A stretch of 64,000 nucleotides of DNA, taken from positions 62,001 to 126,000 of the forward strand of contig JAFLCB010000001.1 in assembly GCA_017302795.1 (NCBI GenBank), written 5' to 3'. The position numbers were made by a program, and so were the translations under genes. Each line of letters begins with the position of its first letter. Positions within the stretch are counted from its first letter, which is position 1. Below the pieces are notes generated by a model, which made no database searches, had not been told where the DNA came from, and was given only the letters and a program-made list of their open reading frames with translations. Below, piece by piece: positions 8,516-36,675 of the stretch. This DNA comes from Deltaproteobacteria bacterium (lineage in GTDB: Bacteria; Bdellovibrionota; Bdellovibrionia; Bdellovibrionales; JAMPXM01).

Positions 8516-9405
8516 TGGAACCCAAACTTGACCCGAACGCAGATCCAGAAACCCGTCTCGGCAGAGCCCGCCGCCTCCGCCAGAGAATGGGTATGCACAT
8601 TTACGTTCTCCCGAATTTGATTACGACGCTGAACATGTTCTTCGGTTTTTTCGCCTTGATTTACGCGATTCGCGGAGAATACGTCTGGGCCGCTTACGCA
8701 ATTGTAGGTGCAGCTGTTTTCGATTTACTTGATGGCCGCGTGGCCCGAATGACGCACTCGACGTCGAAGTTCGGCGCGGAGTATGACTCACTCTGCGATC
8801 TTGTCAGTTTCGGCGTTGCGCCCGGCGTGCTGCTTTACCTCTGGGCGCTGCAACCCTTCGGTCGCCTAGGCTGGCTGGTTTCGTTTTTGTTCACGGCCTG
8901 CGGGGCACTTCGCCTGGCTCGCTTCAATGTGCAAGCCAGCGTTATTGAAAAAGCCTACTTTCAGGGTCTTCCAATTCCAATGGCGGCGGGTATCGTCGCT
9001 TCCTCCGTCCTTGCGTGGAACGATCTCGGCTGGGATCCCCAGCAATCGGTTTTACTATTGACGATGACCGTGCTTTTAGCGTTCGTCATGGTTTCAAACT
9101 TTCGCTACCGAAGTTTTAAGGACCTCGACCTTCGCGAACGTTTGCCGTTTTGGTATCTCGTTCTCGGTGTTGGAGCCTTGGCGCTCATCGCGATCAGACC
9201 GGAAGTGATGCTCTTCATTTTGTTTATGACCTATGCGCTTCTGGGCGCTATCTTTGGCATTCTCGGTTGGGGCCGAAAGCCAAAGCGTCGCGTGGCAATG
9301 GAAGCCGCCCTCACTGCAGAAGGCGATGACCTCCACGAATTCGTAGATGACAACCATTCCGATTCGAATCAGACAGCAGGAGAAAACGGATATGACCGGA
9401 AGTAG
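8515..9405 (+). CDS. pssA: CDP-diacylglycerol-serine O-phosphatidyltransferase
   Basis: PssA makes phosphatidylserine from CDP-diacylglycerol and serine, the committed step to phosphatidylethanolamine. The protein has the full CDP-alcohol phosphotransferase motif, DLLDGRVAR followed by FGAEYDSLCD (about residues 70-97), and about eight hydrophobic segments. It resembles the membrane type II (Bacillus-like) enzyme rather than E. coli PssA. The last 50 residues are a charged cytoplasmic tail. It overlaps the preceding lipid kinase-like gene by one base and the asd start by 14 bases. CDP-diacylglycerol-inositol or -glycerol use is less likely given the FGxExDSLxD sequence. Confidence 0.9.
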   Translation: MEPKLDPNADPETRLGRARRLRQRMGMHIYVLPNLITTLNMFFGFFALIYAIRGEYVWAAYAIVGAAVFDLLDGRVARMTHSTSKFGAEYDSLCDLVSFGVAPGVLLYLWALQPFGRLGWLVSFLFTACGALRLARFNVQASVIEKAYFQGLPIPMAAGIVASSVLAWNDLGWDPQQSVLLLTMTVLLAFVMVSNFRYRSFKDLDLRERLPFWYLVLGVGALALIAIRPEVMLFILFMTYALLGAIFGILGWGRKPKRRVAMEAALTAEGDDLHEFVDDNHSDSNQTAGENGYDRK

Positions 9406-10468
9406 TGTTTCGCGAACCAAAGGAATTAATGTCGGCGTCGTGGGCGCGACAGGTGTCGTTGGGGAAACTTTTCTCCTACTCCTCGCGGAACGCGAATTCC
9501 CAGTTGGCGAATTGCGGCTGTTTGCCAGCGACGCCTCAAAAGGTCTGAAACGAAAAATTCACGACCGCGAATTTGAAGTCACGACATTGTCTGACGGCTG
9601 CTTCGAAGGCCTCGACATCGTTTTCTTTTCAAGTGGCGACGACATTTCTCTCGAATGGGCACCGAAGGCCGTCAAGTCCGGCGCGATCGCGATCGACAAT
9701 TCTGGCGCTTTTAGAATGCGATCCGACATCCAACTGTCGGTCCCTGAGGTCAATGGACACCTGCTACCGAAATTAAAAATGGGCGAGGCACCCGGTTCGG
9801 CAGCACAAATCATTGCAAATCCAAACTGCTCGACGATTCAGCTTGTCGTGGCGTTGAAGCCCCTGGCCGACAAGTATGGTCTCGAGTTCGTGCGAGTTTC
9901 TAGCTACCAGTCGGTCAGCGGAGCCGGAAAAAATGGCATTGAAGAACTCCTCGAGCAAACAAAGATCGCGGTAGAAGGCGACACACCAACCAAGGGAAAA
10001 ACCTTTCCAAAGGTCATCGCCTTCGATTCAATTCCACAAATCGGCTCCTTCACCACGGATGGCTCCTCGCTCGAGGGCTTCTGCAGTGAAGAAGTAAAAA
10101 TCATGAACGAAACACGAAAAATCCTAGGTCTTCCAGATCTCAAAGTCTCGGCGTTCACTGTCCGCGTCCCGACACTTAATTCACATGCTGAAACGGTGTG
10201 GGTCACACTTAAAAAACCCGTGTCAAAGCGCGAGGAAATCGAATCCACGCTCGATTCTGGAAGCGGAATTGAGGTCTTTAAATTTAACGACGGAATGGAC
10301 TACCCCACTCAAGCCTTCGCGTCGGGCCAAGATCCGGTTTACGTCGGCCGCGTCCACAAAGATCCGACCGATCAGACGACTTGGATGATGTGGGTCGTGT
10401 CAGACAACTTGCGTAAAGGCGCAGCTCTCAACGGCATTCAGATCGCAGAAAAAGTTTACGGGCTTTAA
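9392..10468 (+). CDS. asd: Aspartate-semialdehyde dehydrogenase
   Basis: Asd reduces aspartyl phosphate to aspartate semialdehyde with NADPH, feeding lysine, diaminopimelate, threonine and methionine synthesis. The 358-residue protein shows the nucleotide loop VGATGVVGE (about 15-23), the catalytic cysteine in NPNCSTIQ (Cys146) and the substrate region SYQSVSGAGKNG. ATG at 9392, preceded by AGGAG, lies inside the end of pssA; an earlier in-frame ATG at 9347 would add 15 poorly conserved residues. Overlap with pssA suggests one operon with the lipid genes. Length is normal for the family. Confidence 0.95.
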   Translation: MTGSSVSRTKGINVGVVGATGVVGETFLLLLAEREFPVGELRLFASDASKGLKRKIHDREFEVTTLSDGCFEGLDIVFFSSGDDISLEWAPKAVKSGAIAIDNSGAFRMRSDIQLSVPEVNGHLLPKLKMGEAPGSAAQIIANPNCSTIQLVVALKPLADKYGLEFVRVSSYQSVSGAGKNGIEELLEQTKIAVEGDTPTKGKTFPKVIAFDSIPQIGSFTTDGSSLEGFCSEEVKIMNETRKILGLPDLKVSAFTVRVPTLNSHAETVWVTLKKPVSKREEIESTLDSGSGIEVFKFNDGMDYPTQAFASGQDPVYVGRVHKDPTDQTTWMMWVVSDNLRKGAALNGIQIAEKVYGL

Positions 10469-10517
10469 GCCGCATTCTTTGGTTGCTGTGCCGCACAGTG
10501 TTTGCTGTGATGGGGGT

Positions 10518-13052
10518 ATGAAAATACAGCACCAGTTTATAAGCATCTTGAGCGTATTTACGCTGGTTCTCAGTCTTCATGCACCTGATGCCGACGCTGC
10601 GGTGACCGTGTCAGCGGTCGAACGCGCCTCCGTCGTCGAAGGCTCTGGAACCGCGACCATCACCGTTTATGGCGGAGTCGCCGGCGATACAAACCGCTGT
10701 AACTCGGTTGCTAGCGATTCACTTTGCGACAACTGCCGCCTCTTGAACTCCGAAACCGTGCCCAATGCCGATGCCGATCAATACCTTCAGGCTTGTAACA
10801 ATCGCCGCGTCCATCCCGATCTTCAGTTGATCGTTTCACTCTCGAGCGACGCTATCGATGGTCGGGTGACGATCACTAACACGGATGGCAACACGGCGCT
10901 TGCTCCAGTTTCCGCACCGCTGAATCTGACAAAAGGAACGACCGGACAACTTATTCTTCGCTGGGGCGATCTCTGTTCGCGAGTCATTTCGCTAGACACC
11001 AACAGCGGAGGCGAAGGCGCCACACAGTGCGCGCCCGGCAATGGCCACGCCTCGGCAAGTCTGCGAATTGGGATTTCTTCAGATGGAGATGATCTGTTAA
11101 ACGCCGCGACTGACGAGTATCGAACAATGACTGTCATCGTCCGAGGCACCTCTGGCGTATCACTTGCCACCGACTGCGACGACGTCGCGACAGACTCGCG
11201 CATCTGCTATTTCGAAATGGGGCCTGGCGACGAAAAAGCTGTCGTGCGAACCCTCCAAAAACCTGACGGCAATTCCTTCCCGACAGGCACCAATACTACC
11301 TTTAAATTTTTGCGGTTTTTATTTGATGCCCAGGGATTTAACTTCGTCCATTTAGGTTCTAGCTATGTCGATCTTCCCGTTGAGGCGGCTGACACAACGA
11401 CGTTCAACGTCAGTCCACGGCGAATCGAAGGTCTCGTCAACGATGTGCCCTACTATTTTAAAGTCGCAGCTATCGATGCAGCTGGAAACGTAGGTCTCTA
11501 TAACGGAAAAGACACTGACACAGACTGCCAGTATTCAGTCAATCCTGCTGACACCACTTGCCGAGTCGTCACACCGAGCGAGGTCGTTGGGGTTTTGGAT
11601 AAAACTAACTGCTTCATTGCGACCGCTGCCTATGGAACTCCCTTCGCTGACGAGCTCAATATTTTGCGCGATTTTCGAGATCAAGTATTGATGACAACTT
11701 CCGCTGGTCGCGCACTGGTACGCGGTTACTACGCGGCGAGCCCCGCATTGGCAGAATTTATTTTGAAAAACGATACGCTTCGCGATCTTACGCGAAAAGC
11801 ATTGGTCCCCTTTGTTTGGTTTGCAGGAATCAGCCTTTCCATTGGGGCAAGTGCCATGCTTTGGTTTTTAATTTCGATTGCGATCGCAATGACCGCCGTT
11901 ATTCATATCCTTGCAACTCGCCCCCGAAAAACCAGCTCCGCTAAACGGGAGCGGCGCACTGACACCCGTGATCGTTCTGGCTGGCTTCCGATCGTCGCTG
12001 CGCTCATGGTGGGTGCAACAAACATTCAGCCGACTATCGCTCAGGTCGAAGCACTCGAAGACACAAGCTCGACACCCATCGAGGCGCTGGAAGACGATAC
12101 ACCGCCGCCTCCTGAATATCCGTACCCAGGATCGACAGCTCCGATGCTCTCGTCTGAAGAAGAGCCCACGGCCGAACCAGTTCGTCCGTCAACACGACAG
12201 AAAAAGCCTCGTACCTCAGCGAACGGCAGCAAGTTCAGCGATACGCCGACTCCGACCAAGTCCAATGGTTGGGGCGAGAAGCCTAAGCAGATCAATGAGG
12301 ATGGCGATTATATTTACGATAGGCTCAGCGACGCTCCGGCGAAGCAGTACGGTAAGCCAAACGAAATTAAATTCTCCGGCACTCCGGGCCGGGAGGCGCC
12401 GAGCACCATCACTCAAGATGGCGAATTCCTGTACCCTGTCGCCGTTTCTGAATTCACAGGCGCAGGCGGATTGCGCTTTGGCTTGATGGCCCCACCAAAC
12501 ATCATCAATGCAAGTAACGGACTCTCATTCAAAGATATTTACGGTGGCGCAGAAATTCCGGCTTTGCTGTTCGAGTACGAGTATCCCCTTACCCAGGCGA
12601 TCGGGCGCATTGGAATCAAGGGAGAAACCGGGTTCATTGCGACCTCTGCAAAAGGTCGATTCAAAAATCCCGCGCGCGCAGGTGAGGTTCCGGAAGAGCG
12701 ATTTACATTCCTCATGGTACCCCTACAAGCGACGGTCATTTACCGATTTCAGTTCGCCGACAACCAATGGGTCGTTCCCTTTGTCGAAGGTGGCGGTGGA
12801 TATTACGGCATCGTAGAATTGCGAGACGACAGCAAGGCCCCGAAATTTGGCGGTTCGCCTGTGGCGGTGGCGGCGGGTGGAGTCAATATTTTGCTCGATT
12901 GGCTAGATCGCCAAGCCGTTCGTCAACTCGATGCCGACTATGGAATTAATCATGTGTGGCTAAGTCTTCAGTATCGCCAGATCGTCGGCCTCAAGGAGGA
13001 TCTCAAAGTGTCCTCGAGTCTTATCACAGCCGGCTTCACTTTTGACTTTTAG
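10518..13052 (+). CDS. CFI-box surface protein fused to a beta-barrel-like domain
   Basis: An 844-residue exported protein. It has a signal peptide (about 1-27, ending DADAA), then a secreted Cys-containing region (30-350) with Calx-beta/fibronectin-like phrases such as YYFKVAAIDAAGNVG. The CFI-box signature CFIATAAYGTPFADELNILRDFRD begins at Cys365. A hydrophobic segment follows (about 428-466) and then a cluster of Arg/Lys. CFI-box proteins normally end about there. Here the chain continues through a Pro/Glu/Ser-rich linker (about 500-640) with two related blocks (NGSKFSDTPTP and NEIKFSGTPG). It ends in a 200-residue Gly/aromatic-rich, strand-like domain finishing in Phe, as outer-membrane barrels do. 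Substrate and role are unknown. It overlaps the converging kinase gene by 17 bases. Confidence 0.75.
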   Translation: MKIQHQFISILSVFTLVLSLHAPDADAAVTVSAVERASVVEGSGTATITVYGGVAGDTNRCNSVASDSLCDNCRLLNSETVPNADADQYLQACNNRRVHPDLQLIVSLSSDAIDGRVTITNTDGNTALAPVSAPLNLTKGTTGQLILRWGDLCSRVISLDTNSGGEGATQCAPGNGHASASLRIGISSDGDDLLNAATDEYRTMTVIVRGTSGVSLATDCDDVATDSRICYFEMGPGDEKAVVRTLQKPDGNSFPTGTNTTFKFLRFLFDAQGFNFVHLGSSYVDLPVEAADTTTFNVSPRRIEGLVNDVPYYFKVAAIDAAGNVGLYNGKDTDTDCQYSVNPADTTCRVVTPSEVVGVLDKTNCFIATAAYGTPFADELNILRDFRDQVLMTTSAGRALVRGYYAASPALAEFILKNDTLRDLTRKALVPFVWFAGISLSIGASAMLWFLISIAIAMTAVIHILATRPRKTSSAKRERRTDTRDRSGWLPIVAALMVGATNIQPTIAQVEALEDTSSTPIEALEDDTPPPPEYPYPGSTAPMLSSEEEPTAEPVRPSTRQKKPRTSANGSKFSDTPTPTKSNGWGEKPKQINEDGDYIYDRLSDAPAKQYGKPNEIKFSGTPGREAPSTITQDGEFLYPVAVSEFTGAGGLRFGLMAPPNIINASNGLSFKDIYGGAEIPALLFEYEYPLTQAIGRIGIKGETGFIATSAKGRFKNPARAGEVPEERFTFLMVPLQATVIYRFQFADNQWVVPFVEGGGGYYGIVELRDDSKAPKFGGSPVAVAAGGVNILLDWLDRQAVRQLDADYGINHVWLSLQYRQIVGLKEDLKVSSSLITAGFTFDF

Positions 13053-15051
13053 GAGCCTCTGCGACGGCATCGCCGGACTTTATGTACGACTCGTAATCGA
13101 TTCCGGTTCCAACGTTCACAACTCTTTCTAACTTCAACATAAGTTCACCCGCATCAGGACCAAATCCCGGAACCCGGTGGTAGCGCTGTAAAACCGAAAC
13201 ATTCAGCTCCGGCGAGTAAAAATGAAGATCGGGCCGTGAACCTGTGATCTCACATTGAACACGAATGACAGGTTTTTTTCCAAATTTGAATTCAAGTTCT
13301 TCGACCGGCCCTACCGTGCAGGCAATCCCACCTCGAAACGGCATTCGACTGTATTCAGTGGTTCCAAAACTTTCGAAAGAATTTTTCTTGCCGAGGTGAA
13401 GTGGAAAAATCGATGCCGGATCCCCGATCAGGGTGAATAATGCTGACCCGAAGCCGGGTGCATCCTTAGTTTTCAGGATACTGGCTATGAACCCTGCTGG
13501 TCGGTGCCAGATCGTGAACGTCGGCCAGACGACTTCCCCATTTTTTTTCGTTTCCGTGTACTCCCATTTAAGATCTCCATTTTCAAAGGCAACGAGCTTC
13601 GTTTGCAGGTAGGCCACCGAGATCCGTCCATCTACCGCAATAATGGTCTTTAAATATTGAAGCTCCAGGCCCAGGCGTGGATTCGGACGAGGAATCGAAT
13701 TTACGACATCTCCGGCTACAAGAGCGGGCTTGCGTTCATCGGATTTACCTGTGGGCGTTCGCGGATTTTCTTTTTCCTGAATCAACTTCGAAACTCGGGT
13801 GACAATATCTAGTATTAGCGGATTCTTGGCACGCCAAACAAGAGCGGTAGCCGATATAAGAAGAAACAGAATCATTAAATAAACCGGTGCAGATGAGGGT
13901 TGAGCATTTGCCTGCCGCCCAGCGAGACCCGAAGGGCTCGGTTCTCCGACGGGCCGCGCGCCACGGAGTAATTTTTCGCGGCGCGACTCGACTTCCGAAA
14001 TCGCCTCCGCAAGAAGTGCGGCCGGGACATTTTGCTCGGTGACAGTCGTCTGTGGCTCCGCGCCTCTATCCCATTTCGTCAAGGCCAGAGACAGCGCTAA
14101 CGGCCACTCGGGTCTTTCAAGCCGCGACACCTTAAACGTTTCTAACGTTTTTTCTACATCTCCGAGATCTTCGGACTGGAGCGGGCGATAATAGTACTGT
14201 GGCAATTTCGAAAATTCTATTTTCCCTATCGCATCAAGAAAGTCTGCCATTCGAGCATACCGCTGTAACGGATCAAAGTGAGTGGCCCGCAACAGAACTT
14301 CCTTGAAGCCCACGGGCAAATGCACCTCAGACCGGCGAGAAAGACCAAGATTGTGAACTCGAATATTTTCTAGAATTTGAAGTCGTGACGTCGCCGAAAA
14401 CGGCGTTGTCTCGGTTAGCATTTCTGTCATTACTAAACCTAAAGAATAGATATCTGTACGTGCATTCGGGGATGTGCCCGAGAGAAGTTCGGGCGCCAAA
14501 TAATTGAGAGTTCCAATGAGAAGCCCAACTTCTGTCTCGACATCATTTTCCGAATAAAGAGCCTTCGCGATTCCAAAGTCGATAATTTTAGCATTTCCAT
14601 GGCGGTCGACCAATATGTTAGCCGGCTTGATATCGCGGTGAACAATCCCACGACTGTGAGCAGCCTGAAGCCCAAGTGCAGAGCCACGAATGATATCGAC
14701 CATTTCTTTATAGTTGATACGACACTGACGAATCAAATTGTGAAGCGACTCGCCTTCCACATGTTCCATCGCGATGTAGACACAGCTGTCATCCTCGCCA
14801 AGTGAGTAGATCGCAGTGATGTTAGGATGGTGAACTTGCGCAAGAAGTTTTCCTTCCTGCAGAAATCGAGAGTGCATTGCCGGATCACGGTGAAACTCTT
14901 TTCCGATCACTTTGACGGCAACGTTCCGGTTCAAGGTGAGGTCACGACAAAGAAATACCTGCCCCATCCCGCCCGCGCCAATGGGAGACAATACCGTAAA
15001 AGCACCAATGCTTTCGCCAGGTTTTTTCAGCCACTTTTCGCCGCTACTCAT
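13036..15051 (-). CDS. Membrane-bound Ser/Thr protein kinase
   Basis: A Hanks-type kinase. The N-terminal kinase domain (about 15-280) has Gly-loop GAGGMG (25-30), catalytic Lys47 in VAVKVI, HRDIKPANI (138-146), DFG (158-160) and APE (187-189), so it should be active. A single membrane segment lies at about 388-407. The C-terminal 260 residues should be periplasmic and have no PASTA or other repeat that I recognise. They hold several strand-like stretches and may be a ligand sensor. A linker of about 100 residues precedes the membrane segment. A PP2C-type phosphatase is encoded 4 kb away and could oppose it; that pairing is inference. Confidence 0.9.
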   Translation of the reverse strand: MSSGEKWLKKPGESIGAFTVLSPIGAGGMGQVFLCRDLTLNRNVAVKVIGKEFHRDPAMHSRFLQEGKLLAQVHHPNITAIYSLGEDDSCVYIAMEHVEGESLHNLIRQCRINYKEMVDIIRGSALGLQAAHSRGIVHRDIKPANILVDRHGNAKIIDFGIAKALYSENDVETEVGLLIGTLNYLAPELLSGTSPNARTDIYSLGLVMTEMLTETTPFSATSRLQILENIRVHNLGLSRRSEVHLPVGFKEVLLRATHFDPLQRYARMADFLDAIGKIEFSKLPQYYYRPLQSEDLGDVEKTLETFKVSRLERPEWPLALSLALTKWDRGAEPQTTVTEQNVPAALLAEAISEVESRREKLLRGARPVGEPSPSGLAGRQANAQPSSAPVYLMILFLLISATALVWRAKNPLILDIVTRVSKLIQEKENPRTPTGKSDERKPALVAGDVVNSIPRPNPRLGLELQYLKTIIAVDGRISVAYLQTKLVAFENGDLKWEYTETKKNGEVVWPTFTIWHRPAGFIASILKTKDAPGFGSALFTLIGDPASIFPLHLGKKNSFESFGTTEYSRMPFRGGIACTVGPVEELEFKFGKKPVIRVQCEITGSRPDLHFYSPELNVSVLQRYHRVPGFGPDAGELMLKLERVVNVGTGIDYESYIKSGDAVAEAPKSQK

Positions 15052-15125: not shown

Positions 15126-16043
15126 GTGAAAAGAACTCCGTCCTCGACTTTCGTCGAATCACTAGAATTTCGCAGATGCGCTGAAGACCGGTATCGCGTG
15201 CGTTTACATCTTTCTTATGACGGCACTGACTTTCACGGGTGGCAGCGCCAGACCGACGCCGCTGGAAACACAACCCTAATCACGGGCCAGGGCACGATCG
15301 AAGCGGCGGTGGAAAAGTTGTTCGGGGAGAAACTGTCAGTGGTCGGAGCGAGTCGCACAGATGCAGGCGTTCACGCACAGATGCAGGTCGCTCACTTTGA
15401 CTGCAAAAAAGATCCGACTTTATTTCGCGATTTGCGCTATTCGCTTCAGTGCCTGACGCCGTCATCGTTAGTTGTGAAAGAAGCGTTTTTGGCGCCTTAC
15501 GACTTTCATTCCATCGCGACTGCAACTGATAAGACTTATCGTTACTCAATTCTGAACCGGCGAGTGCCCAGTGCCCTTCGGCGCCGCACCACTTGGTGGG
15601 TTCGCGAACCGTTAAGCTTGGATTTTCTTAACGAAGCGAGCCAGTATCTAGTCGGAACTCACGATTTTAAAAGCTTTCAAACTAGCGGAACCTTTGTCGA
15701 ATCAACGGTTCGCACACTGACCAAGCTGGCTTGGCAAAAGGTAATCCCGTCGGAGTCAAAATTGAGCCCGCATGGCGCTAACAAGGCCTCGCTTTCAGAT
15801 GCCCAATTCGCGGACACTTTGTTGTTCGAAATTCAGGGCGAAGGTTTTTTAAAACAAATGGTGAGAAATATTGTGGGTACTTTGGTAGACCTCCAGACGA
15901 ATGGAAAGGCGCCAGCTGACATTAAAGCGGTGCTCGAGGCAAAAGACCGGCGAAAAGCCGGCAACACTGCCCCGCCTCAGGGCCTATTCTTATCCTCCAT
16001 CCGATATCCTCATGAACTTGACAATCGTTGCCGTCCTCTTTAA
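15126..16043 (+). CDS. truA: tRNA pseudouridine(38-40) synthase TruA
   Basis: TruA isomerises uridines 38-40 in the anticodon arm of tRNAs. The protein has LSYDGTDFHGWQRQ near the N-terminus (about 28-41), the catalytic Asp79 in SRTDAGVHA and C-terminal FLKQMVRNIVGTL. At 305 residues it is slightly longer than most, owing to about 20 N-terminal residues before the conserved RYRVRL and an insertion near 200-230. The start is GTG at 15126. It is followed closely by rplM and rpsI, a common neighbourhood for truA. Confidence 0.94.
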   Translation: MKRTPSSTFVESLEFRRCAEDRYRVRLHLSYDGTDFHGWQRQTDAAGNTTLITGQGTIEAAVEKLFGEKLSVVGASRTDAGVHAQMQVAHFDCKKDPTLFRDLRYSLQCLTPSSLVVKEAFLAPYDFHSIATATDKTYRYSILNRRVPSALRRRTTWWVREPLSLDFLNEASQYLVGTHDFKSFQTSGTFVESTVRTLTKLAWQKVIPSESKLSPHGANKASLSDAQFADTLLFEIQGEGFLKQMVRNIVGTLVDLQTNGKAPADIKAVLEAKDRRKAGNTAPPQGLFLSSIRYPHELDNRCRPL

Positions 16044-33902: not shown

Positions 33903-34616
33903 TTAGCGAATCAAACGGCTGCGAAGACCGCCTTCTTTCATGAAGCCCGATATTTCAGTTTCAGAAATCTTAAGTGCCTCGATTTTCTCCAAGGTCGACG
34001 CCGACTTTCCCTTGAACTTGGCAGCTGTATCGGTCGCCGCACTCATCACATCTTCGGCATCTGCGCCGACGGCGTCTTCAAGAGCCTCTTGCCCCGCTTT
34101 CTGTTTACCTTTTACGGCCGCACCCACATCCTCTTTAAAAGACGCGGCCTTACCTTTGCCTGAGGCCGCTGCAGCCTCTGCCGCAGGAGATAGATCCGTA
34201 AGACCTTTTGCAGCGCCCCCCAGAGAGCTGGCAATTCGACCTTTGGTGTCTGAGGCAGCGGTATCGGCTGACTTCATATTTGCAAGTCCACCAATGATAT
34301 CTTTGTCCTTGGAAATTGAAGCGTTTTTGATCCAACCCTTTATAGATGGATCGTCGGCCAATGCGACTTGCGAGAAACTGCCCTTTTTCTTTAGAACGGT
34401 TACCAAGTTTCCTGGTTCGAGCTCGCGAACGACCGTTCCGCCGATCAAAATCGGGGTAGTTTTAAGCGGTTCTTTGGCGACTACGGCCGCCTGCTCCGCA
34501 GCCATTGCGATCGACGCCCCTAAAAACAGTGTTGCAATTCCAGCTGAAAATTCGCGAGCCAGACTTGGTGCGCGCACCATTGCCCGCGTGAAACTGTTAT
34601 TTCTATTTTTCGTCAT
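33903..34616 (-). CDS. Exported SH3-like domain protein with Ala/Lys-rich tail
   Basis: The 237-residue product has a signal peptide (about 1-40, ending SIAMA). A bacterial SH3-like segment follows (about 58-100, GGTVVRELEPGNLVTVLKKKGSFSQV...GWI). Then comes a long low-complexity tail rich in Ala, Lys, Gly and Asp, and a C-terminal helix ending in RSRLIR. SH3-like domains often bind peptidoglycan or peptides in the envelope. It overlaps the cyclase gene upstream by 14 bases and ends 23 bases before the M48 start. Its partner is not known. Confidence 0.7.
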   Translation of the reverse strand: MTKNRNNSFTRAMVRAPSLAREFSAGIATLFLGASIAMAAEQAAVVAKEPLKTTPILIGGTVVRELEPGNLVTVLKKKGSFSQVALADDPSIKGWIKNASISKDKDIIGGLANMKSADTAASDTKGRIASSLGGAAKGLTDLSPAAEAAAASGKGKAASFKEDVGAAVKGKQKAGQEALEDAVGADAEDVMSAATDTAAKFKGKSASTLEKIEALKISETEISGFMKEGGLRSRLIR

Positions 34617-36675
34617 GATGCCATACTCCCATCTTCAACTGCTTAAGTTCACCGTGTTTCAGTGCGTCTTGGCAACGCTGTTGCATGATCTTGGCAGGAG
34701 GAACCTCTAGGACCTGGCCAAAGGCCTGGTCCGCAGCGGACCAATCTCTTCGTAGGTAAAGTGCAAAGGCAGATTTATATCCCGCTATATTTGCTGCCGC
34801 GATTCCTGCCGTTGAAGAGTAGATCATCACCGGTTTCGATCGCCCCTTCACTGCCACCTGATCGACAAGGTAAATCTCAGTCGAGCCTTCGGCACCTGCG
34901 GATCGAACGGCATCTTCGCTTATTACAAGAGTGACGTCGTATTGCTTTCCAAGTCCCTCTAAGCGAGAGGCAAGATTCACTGAATCACCGACGGCGGTGT
35001 AGTTGTAACGAGTGTGCGAACCGATGTTTCCGCAGATCGCGTGTCCCGTGTGAAGCCCGACACGGGCAACAAACAAGTCCCCTTCAAAGCCAAATTTTTC
35101 CCGAGCTTTCGCATTGAATCGGTCTACGGCAGCTTGGTATTCCAAGGCCGTGCGGTAAGCGCGTTGCGCGTGATCGTTCTGACCGACTACCGGCGCACCC
35201 CAAAGGGCCATGATGGCGTCGCCAATGAATTTGTCGACAAACCCATCGTGAGAAAAAACGAGGTCCACGCATTCATCTAAATACATATTTAGAATTTCAA
35301 CTAGCTTATCAGCATCTGTCGATTCGGCCAGAGATGTGAATCCAGATAGATCCGAAAACAAAATCGAAATTTCGCGTCGATCACCGAATCGGGTCGCGCT
35401 CAATTTGCCAGAGCGAATCAACTGAACCATAGAGTCTGACATCGAGTTTTTGATGGACTGAATAAATCGTTCACGCTCTTTCCACTCCGTCTGAAATCGA
35501 AACGACAAATAGGCAATTGCCAAGCCGCCAAAAGCGATCACAAACGGAACTGGGTTAATCCAATAATCAAAAAACCAAACGCCAAAGCTATGTGCCGGAA
35601 TCAAGACAAGGACAATTGCGACGGTTGATAAAAGTGCCGGCCGAGGACTTACTGGCCGAAACACTGCGATCGCCAAACCTAAGCCAAGTGCTAGCGCCGA
35701 AAGGGCGATCGCCCAATCAGGAGTTCGACGAATACGTTCTCCGTGTATGAGGTTTAACGTCTGAGTCGCATGGACGTACACTCCTGGCGCTCGCTCGTCT
35801 GTTGGAAGAGGCCGCAAATCGTAAAGTCCCGGTGCCGCAACACCGAGGACCCAATGCTTACCGCTCAGAATTTTTTTTGCTTCAGCCACAGCTTGATCTT
35901 TTGGACCGTCGTGAAATTCTGCGCGATAGACACGAAGGACGTCGATGAAATCGATCAAAGGAAGAGTGTCGCGTTCGTAAAACTTGATAAGTGTGGACTT
36001 TACTCTGCCAGACGGCCAAAAAAGTTCTTCGCCAGAATCAATACGTTTTCGACCGAGAATCGCAGCCTCGCCGATTGATGGAAATTTCTCGCCACTAGGA
36101 CTTTCAAAGATGCGAGGAACGCGGCGGTAAACTCCATCCTCCTCAAGCGGAATATTGACAGCGCCGTAGAAGAGTTTCGCATCGATCTCTCGGATAATAT
36201 CGGAATTCGGTTTCTTAAACGAGGTCGTTGTAGGCGCCGGAAACACGACACGCGAACCAGGATTTTCCGCAAGGTACTTCTTTAGTGCCTCGTTGAGTGC
36301 TTCATCATCGGCCTTGCCGTAGACGGAGTGACTGTCAAATAAGAGGTCAAAGGTAACGGAACTAGCTTTCAAGAGCGATGCCGTCTCCAGAAATGGCCCG
36401 TATATTTCACGAGGCCAGGGCCAACCAAGTTTTAAACTTGGATCGTCCCGCATTGCATCCAGTGAAGCCTGTGTGATGATCACCACGACGACGTCGTCCT
36501 TTGCTGGCTTTGCCGTGGCCCGCTGAAACGCATCGTAAACCGGCCAGCCCACAAGTTCGAACCAACCACGGGTCATACGTGTCGTTAGTAATAACGCGAC
36601 GGCAATCACCGATAGCAAGATAGCGATTTTCTTCAGCCGGCCCGGGACTGAAAGAAAAGTTTTGATAGAACTCAT
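34603..36675 (-). CDS. CHASE2-domain adenylate/guanylate cyclase (class III)
   Basis: A 690-residue membrane cyclase. An N-terminal helix (about 15-32) is followed by a large extracytoplasmic CHASE2 sensor (about 40-320, with the typical VVVVIITQASLDAM start), three closely spaced helices and a C-terminal class III cyclase domain. That domain shows ILFSDLSGFTSLAE with a metal Asp and FVDKFIGDAIMALWGAP, where Lys and the second metal Asp are visible. NYTAVGDSVNLASRLEGL supplies the transition-state region. ATP or GTP use cannot be settled by eye, though the Lys in KFIGD fits ATP. A response regulator gene precedes it by 10 bases. Confidence 0.9.
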   Translation of the reverse strand: MSSIKTFLSVPGRLKKIAILLSVIAVALLLTTRMTRGWFELVGWPVYDAFQRATAKPAKDDVVVVIITQASLDAMRDDPSLKLGWPWPREIYGPFLETASLLKASSVTFDLLFDSHSVYGKADDEALNEALKKYLAENPGSRVVFPAPTTTSFKKPNSDIIREIDAKLFYGAVNIPLEEDGVYRRVPRIFESPSGEKFPSIGEAAILGRKRIDSGEELFWPSGRVKSTLIKFYERDTLPLIDFIDVLRVYRAEFHDGPKDQAVAEAKKILSGKHWVLGVAAPGLYDLRPLPTDERAPGVYVHATQTLNLIHGERIRRTPDWAIALSALALGLGLAIAVFRPVSPRPALLSTVAIVLVLIPAHSFGVWFFDYWINPVPFVIAFGGLAIAYLSFRFQTEWKERERFIQSIKNSMSDSMVQLIRSGKLSATRFGDRREISILFSDLSGFTSLAESTDADKLVEILNMYLDECVDLVFSHDGFVDKFIGDAIMALWGAPVVGQNDHAQRAYRTALEYQAAVDRFNAKAREKFGFEGDLFVARVGLHTGHAICGNIGSHTRYNYTAVGDSVNLASRLEGLGKQYDVTLVISEDAVRSAGAEGSTEIYLVDQVAVKGRSKPVMIYSSTAGIAAANIAGYKSAFALYLRRDWSAADQAFGQVLEVPPAKIMQQRCQDALKHGELKQLKMGVWHHDEK

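Follow-up and report, generated by a model that had tools for sequence, protein, structure and literature searches.

How can one polypeptide carry both a hydrophobic helix that ought to stay in the inner membrane and a β-barrel that ought to reach the outer membrane? The question is raised by a frame at positions 10518-13052 (+) of the window, the whole stretch of 64,000 nucleotides from a Deltaproteobacteria bacterium contig (JAFLCB010000001.1) that was analysed here. The initial annotation saw in this frame a CFI-box region followed by an outer-membrane-type barrel, regarded the helix and the barrel as hard to reconcile in an uncut chain, and proposed either cleavage at the CFI region or an envelope-spanning topology. 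The conflict and the likelihood of cleavage were upheld by our analysis. A cut at the CFI region was not supported, the evidence pointing to a site downstream of a second hydrophobic segment (aa 487-508) that the earlier description had left out, and the envelope-spanning topology was disfavoured. Judged from sequence, two orthologous neighbours are joined in frame here, a CFI-box protein gene and a Bd0486/MXAN_2562-like barrel gene, and the probable signal peptide of the barrel is kept inside. We favour, at a probability of about 80%, the reading that the product is a two-protein polyprotein, predicted to yield an inner-membrane CFI protein and an outer-membrane barrel on cleavage by signal peptidase I.

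The frame is a single uninterrupted ORF of 844 aa with its ATG at 10518 and its stop codon at 13050-13052; the first in-frame start downstream of the preceding stop is a TTG at 10479. All features of the protein lie on the + strand. By inspection, an N-terminal Sec signal peptide occupies aa 1-27 (10518-10598; MKIQ...DADA/AVTVS). AlphaFold2 (AF2), run on 36 sequences comprising the window protein and relatives, modelled β-sandwich domains, a helical CFI region, a helix at 444-466, disorder from 468 to ~614 and a barrel. The secreted β-sandwich region spans aa 28-345 (10599-11552), and residues 226-355 were fibronectin-III-like when the AF2 model was compared with known structures, the FN3 matches being weak (Z 8.3-8.4). 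The CFI-box-CTERM domain follows at aa 365-433 (11610-11816) and matched NF041770 of NCBIfam over model positions 1-69 of 69 with 88.7 bits (cut-off 40). Its C365, F366 and I367 were invariant across 11 fused proteins (alignment A1), and a search with the domain of sequences of solved structures returned one weak methyltransferase match (E 0.039). The hydropathy profile then reveals a candidate stop-transfer helix, TM1 (aa 433-466, 11814-11915), where AF2 placed helices at 419-442 and 444-466. The CTERM name implies a C-terminal position, and in split relatives (104 loci) the CFI gene indeed stops after a TM-like segment; in the window protein, 378 residues continue beyond TM1. They begin with an Arg/Lys-rich loop (aa 467-486, 11916-11975; net charge +6 as scored), predicted to be cytoplasmic and to form the n-region of an internal signal. 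The second hydrophobic segment, the predicted internal signal peptide SP2 (aa 487-508, 11976-12041; SGWLPIVAALMVGATNIQPTIA/QVEALED), resembles the N-terminal signals of unfused barrels in place and form, and ends in a small-residue motif directly ahead of an acidic, EYPYPG-containing linker.

The Pro/Ser-rich linker with repeated blocks and the barrel ending in Phe, both described before, were borne out. The linker (aa 509-648, 12042-12461) is predicted to be disordered, with AF2 pLDDT mostly <50 up to about residue 614. It consists of 15% Pro, 10% Ser, 10% Thr and 11% Glu over aa 509-640, and holds, besides the EYPYPG motif, two DG-x-Y/F-x-Y blocks and the repeated short blocks VEALED/IEALED and KFSDTP/KFSGTP. 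For residues 645-844, where structure prediction had been proposed as a check, AF2 gave eight strands (649-843), most at pLDDT ~90 or above, in an OmpA-type fold. The predicted outer-membrane β-barrel (aa 649-844, 12462-13049, C-terminal Phe) was nearest to OmpA, OprF, OmpW and NspA (VIA-align, Z 16.4-17.0; OmpA Z 17.0 over 164 residues at 3.6 Å, OprF Z 16.8). It matched the Bd0486 family of outer-membrane barrels (NF053801) over aa 629-844 with 207.2 bits, below the cut-off of 370, and is thus a homologue rather than a member; the B. bacteriovorus barrel scored 539.4 bits against the same model. The MXAN_2562 family model (NF040596, cut-off 100) gave 90.7 bits for the window protein and 146.4 bits for the fused protein of a distant relative, L256, and the MXAN_2561 family model (NF045522) gave 18.6 bits against a cut-off of 150, over aa 291-325 only. 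The sole Pfam match, PycTM over TM1, scored 14.1 bits (cut-off 27.2) and was taken as noise from a hydrophobic segment; an NCBIfam match to DNA polymerase III at 9.6 bits was disregarded. A barrel-only alignment (A2) held no stretch conserved enough for scanning contigs.

Homologues with the same fusion were searched for, as had been suggested. Every one of the 39 genomes searched first contained a match, as did 132 of the 140 genomes within the order, which holds Bdellovibrio. Loci were read in 129 genomes of the order, a sample that leaves out three genomes with weak matches only (G060, G111, G117). Among the 120 that could be resolved, 32 were fused and 88 split; the other nine were mostly cut at contig ends or had their halves on two contigs. 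Outside the order, 60 further matching genomes were chosen, mostly those with stronger matches, and 43 of these were read together with L256 (CP070770.1, Deltaproteobacteria bin23). There, 28 of the 44 loci read were fused, a share that is biased upward because stronger matches were preferred and fusions score higher. In total, 60 fused and 104 split loci were resolved (n=164), most of them from draft or metagenome-assembled genomes, the split halves being separate genes on one strand. Both states occur inside the genera g15, g17 and g44. In the class of L256 both genomes are fused, the second (G369), which was left out of the 60 fusions counted, being 63% identical to L256; in its phylum, pairs in different open frames were found in G417, G452, G380 and G395, as judged from the match table.

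The surroundings of the pair are conserved. In the window the fusion lies between genes named from their translations as asd (aspartate-semialdehyde dehydrogenase, 9347-10468, +) and truA (tRNA pseudouridine synthase, 15126-16043, +). A phmmer homologue of asd and/or truA was present in the stretch read at 161 of the 164 resolved loci, and of both at 94, these counts referring to presence and not to order or strand; in L256 the order is asd, fusion, truA. Because this neighbourhood is constant, we took the fused and split forms to be the same locus. Among split pairs whose frame permits a 4-nt overlap, the start codon sits exactly at the overlap position in 65 of 76, a value obtained without picking the start nearest the overlap, an earlier choice that favours it. 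The CFI and barrel genes share a reading frame in only two of the 104 split pairs, so most fusions needed a frame change plus the loss of a stop. In these two (G040 and G100) a single stop codon separates the CFI and barrel genes, and they are possible intermediates of fusion or fission.

Several further features of these genomes were recorded. An extra frame upstream of the CFI gene (L231:1725-2798, and G116:C53 near 150 kb) encodes the N-terminal β-region only, with no CFI match, and is likely a tandem duplicate. The eight genomes of the order in which no match was found, also at E 0.001, belong to genera g46, g53, g62 and g63 and are all 1.4-2.0 Mb in size, which suggests loss in reduced genomes; two genomes of 1.2-1.3 Mb (G102, G103) keep the locus in fused form. 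A second CFI-box match in the window genome lies at G000:C1:409897-410070, in an open frame of 407 residues. CFI-box relatives (L241-L297) were also found in Chloroflexi, Nitrospirae, Omnitrophota, Elusimicrobia and archaea (Methanophagales, Ethanoperedens), a spread which suggests that the domain is probably not tied to an outer membrane. Between the fusion and truA, the window has a convergent Ser/Thr protein kinase gene (13036-15051, -) that overlaps the 3' end of the fusion by 17 nt; with short flanks read, a phmmer homologue was present at one of the 164 resolved loci, that of the window genome itself. Elsewhere in the window, 34606-36675 (-) encodes a CHASE2 sensor with a guanylate/adenylate cyclase domain.

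Phylogenetic trees indicate that the fused and split states switched repeatedly in related bacteria. A tree of all 164 rows, built by a quick method, required at least 24 state changes, 13 of them forced by strongly supported branches; L256 sits on a long branch in this tree and its placement was not relied on. Under a mixture model, a tree of 39 rows, hand-picked after the 164-row tree had been seen, required 10 changes, nine of them forced, and a single clade of its 17 fused rows was rejected (p-AU 4.65e-9). These counts do not separate fusion from fission.

The window protein, with its predicted stop-transfer TM, basic loop and second signal-like segment, has the features expected of an internal-signal polyprotein by hydropathy, by charge and by a home-made position matrix for cleavage sites. 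This matrix was trained on 123 N-terminal regions of CFI genes, that is, on other signals. SP2 tails of fusions (n=44, median 2.34) were on a par with split-barrel signals (n=103, median 1.91; AUC 0.48) in their scores, which exceeded those of TM1 tails (n=44, median 0.07; AUC 0.80, p 6.6e-7) and of shuffled tails (AUC 0.72). Scores >3 were reached by 17 of 44 SP2 tails and 42 of 103 split-barrel signals, compared to four of 44 TM1 tails and seven of 104 TM1 tails of split loci. The separation is statistical, and sites are ambiguous in some fusions (G139, G021). The window SP2 scored 3.28, its best site lying two residues further on. The best 10-residue hydropathy, used in place of earlier Kyte-Doolittle means over the longest run above threshold, which understate the hydrophobic core, had a median of 2.86 for SP2 and 2.74 for split-barrel signals; the window SP2, at 2.4, ranks seventh lowest of the 44 and above 23 of the 103 split-barrel signals. 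The AF2 model shows no helix for it (pLDDT <50), and in the L256 model a single helix (345-385), of low confidence in part, runs through both TM1 and SP2. The loop between TM1 and SP2 is net positive (+2 or more) in all 44 fusions, and the 25 residues after SP2 have a median charge of -2, being positive in 13 of 44.

On the preferred reading, the N-terminal signal would take the chain into SecYEG, TM1 would halt transfer while the basic loop remains cytoplasmic, and SP2 would restart export as a loop. Signal peptidase I would then cut after SP2, at about A508, with A508 and T506 as the -1/-3 residues, leaving an inner-membrane-anchored CFI protein and freeing a barrel precursor bound for the outer membrane like other barrels; the two products, of 51 and 37 kDa by calculation from a chain of about 88 kDa, would be made at a fixed 1:1 ratio. 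A signal peptidase of family S26 (PF10502) was detected in all six genomes searched, that of the window included.

Across the 60 fusions, TM1 and SP2 are either kept or missing together: 44 have both, 15 have neither, and one (G327) is unclear. The automatic count of hydrophobic runs gave two in 39 fusions, none in 10, one in six and three in five, and the cases with one or three runs were reassigned by eye. Where three runs were counted, the surplus one belonged to barrel strand 1 (G028, G035) or was a helix just before TM1 (G004, G090, CP070770); where one was counted, it lay in the barrel (G305, G313, G315) or was a 13-residue piece of the CFI helix (G316, G358), and G327 was kept as unclear. 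G327, the sole misfit, has one hydrophobic stretch of 33 residues and no clear second segment. The best 19-residue hydropathy mean at the TM1 position, taken in a landmark-based window with class membership fixed beforehand, was at least 1.94 in 45 of 45 fusions (G327 included) and at least 1.62 in 104 of 104 split loci, and at most 1.44 in all 15 fusions with neither segment, with no overlap between these 15 and the TM1-bearing proteins. The 15 (G064, G074, twelve f22 genomes and G358) all keep a hydrophobic N-terminal segment. All 104 split loci have a TM-like segment after the CFI domain (one hydrophobic run in 100, two in four), and 103 have at least one hydrophobic run ahead of the barrel domain. 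Beside f22 fusions without either segment, and within a clade of fused rows, G307 retains both (support of the separating branch, 81), and from its position the paired loss of TM1 and SP2 in that clade probably came after fusion. A parity rule of this kind would follow from a need for the barrel to reach the periplasm, as a lone segment should leave it in the cytoplasm; a fusion with one segment alone was not clearly seen among the 60. In the 15 fusions with neither, export of the entire chain would raise no membrane conflict, and the chain probably crosses uncut, its two parts staying joined.

Could the long frame be something other than the source of both products? An assembly or frameshift artefact joining two genes might be suspected, given that the assembly of the window genome comprises 39 contigs and those of most relatives are drafts. 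However, the check for a frameshift found the frame unbroken, the same fusion is present in four separately assembled genomes of genera g1 and g7 (G001, G003, G004, G012), and it occurs independently in the one-contig genome G020, of another family, and in the chromosome record L256; nor would the parity of TM1 and SP2 arise from error. We regard an artefact as barely conceivable. Dual expression, in which the barrel is also made from an internal start and the functional protein does not come from the long frame, is very unlikely. Some in-frame ATG, GTG or TTG does precede SP2 in 23 of 44 fusions, yet such a start is accompanied by an SD-like motif in just three of the 44 (one with ATG/GTG), compared to 74 of 103 split barrels, and the loop of the window protein contains no in-frame start. 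Re-initiation was disfavoured in the same analysis. That SP2 keeps its signal character without a start of its own is best explained by its use within the long chain.

If the chain is made whole, it might also stay whole, TM1 and SP2 forming an inner-membrane hairpin and the linker reaching the outer-membrane barrel, so that the two membranes are tied together. In the window protein 140 residues separate SP2 from strand 1, enough to cross the periplasm if extended, and the SP2 cleavage motif is not ideal; a long linker alone would not exclude such a tether. In L256, however, SP2 ends at residue 392 and strand 1 is predicted by AF2 to start at 401, and with 8 residues between them no chain could sit in both membranes. 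The end of the hydrophobic run lies 30 residues or fewer from the barrel domain in 13 of the 44 fusions, although strand 1 may start up to ~20 residues later, as it does in the window, and the SP2 tails resemble cleavable signals. An uncut tether is therefore quite improbable. If the chain is cut, the site could instead be at or near the CFI-box, the work of a sorting protease like a myxosortase or rhombosortase. In NCBIfam the CFI-box is classed as a C-terminal (CTERM) domain, and a study of Myxococcus xanthus describes cutting of MYXO-CTERM proteins by MrtX and proposes mid-protein MYXO-CTERM processing for MXAN_5598 (PMC11980579). Against this, Cys365 lies 68 residues ahead of TM1 rather than adjoining it and the chain continues, a layout outside the definition of a MYXO-CTERM or myxosortase substrate; the CFI-box is kept without a TM-like segment in 15 fusions; and with no other cut TM1, SP2 and the barrel would still form one chain. 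We consider cleavage at or near the CFI-box an unlikely answer; it could occur in addition to the cut after SP2. A polyprotein cut after SP2 remains the reading that we prefer.

The persistence of the CFI-box where the membrane helix is absent makes it unlikely to be an inner-membrane sorting tag only. We tentatively propose, as a possibility that we rate below even odds, that over at least nine changes between the split and fused states selection tolerated fusions only where the count of membrane segments is even, two giving a cleavable polyprotein and none a continuous chain from the periplasm to the outer membrane. If this is true, it would follow from the class with neither segment that the CFI-box is not there to retain the protein in the inner membrane, and that the CFI protein and the barrel function at the outer membrane as a single physical entity. 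Split, probably cut and probably uncut forms stand side by side in related species, a one-contig genome among them, which makes topological limits on gene fusion testable, and the system illustrates how two overlapping envelope genes turn into one. Automatic annotation would report one odd chain where the cell probably makes two proteins.

To our knowledge, bacterial polyproteins with internal signal peptides are rare, and a search for them in the open-licence literature returned viral papers or nothing. The cytochrome b/c1 polyprotein of Bradyrhizobium, encoded by fbcH, is a precursor with an internal signal sequence that is cut into two membrane proteins; no relevant paper on it came up in the open-licence literature. 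Those products are respiratory proteins, whereas the window gene would yield one inner-membrane and one outer-membrane product and belongs to a locus with repeated changes of state. In viral polyproteins, stop-transfer segments take turns with internal signals and the products are released by host signal peptidase; this happens in the eukaryotic ER rather than a bacterial envelope, and no common descent is suggested.

Comparable parts are found in the MXAN_2561/MXAN_2562 and Bd0486 families (NF045522, NF040596, NF053801), in which a C-terminally tagged protein and an outer-membrane barrel have consecutive locus numbers. The homology of the barrel is clear; by their names these are separate genes, and the window protein falls under each curated cut-off. 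No papers on the CFI-box, Bd0484-0486 or MXAN_2561/2562 were found in the open-licence literature. The closest published relative in design that we found is MXAN_5598 of M. xanthus, also named in PMC4158809. It is described as having an adhesin-like N-terminus, a mid-protein MYXO-CTERM with its TM and then an outer-membrane β-barrel. Its authors propose that two genes were fused and compare it with TraA/TraB, whose ORFs overlap; MYXO-CTERM is characterised there by a signature Cys motif directly before the TM and a short Arg-rich C-terminus (PMC11980579). The likeness of the CFI/barrel pair to TraA/TraB is an analogy only. MXAN_5598, on that description, shares with the window protein the succession of an N-terminal region, a mid-chain tag with a TM helix and a barrel, a likeness of design. 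In contrast to the window protein, it bears a MYXO-CTERM tag whose Cys adjoins the TM, and it has OmpA domains as well. Processing is proposed at the tag, and the available text mentions neither an internal signal, nor recurrence, nor paired loss of TM and signal. Relative to that text, what the locus described here adds is the predicted internal signal peptide, the repeated changes between split and fused states, and the parity rule.
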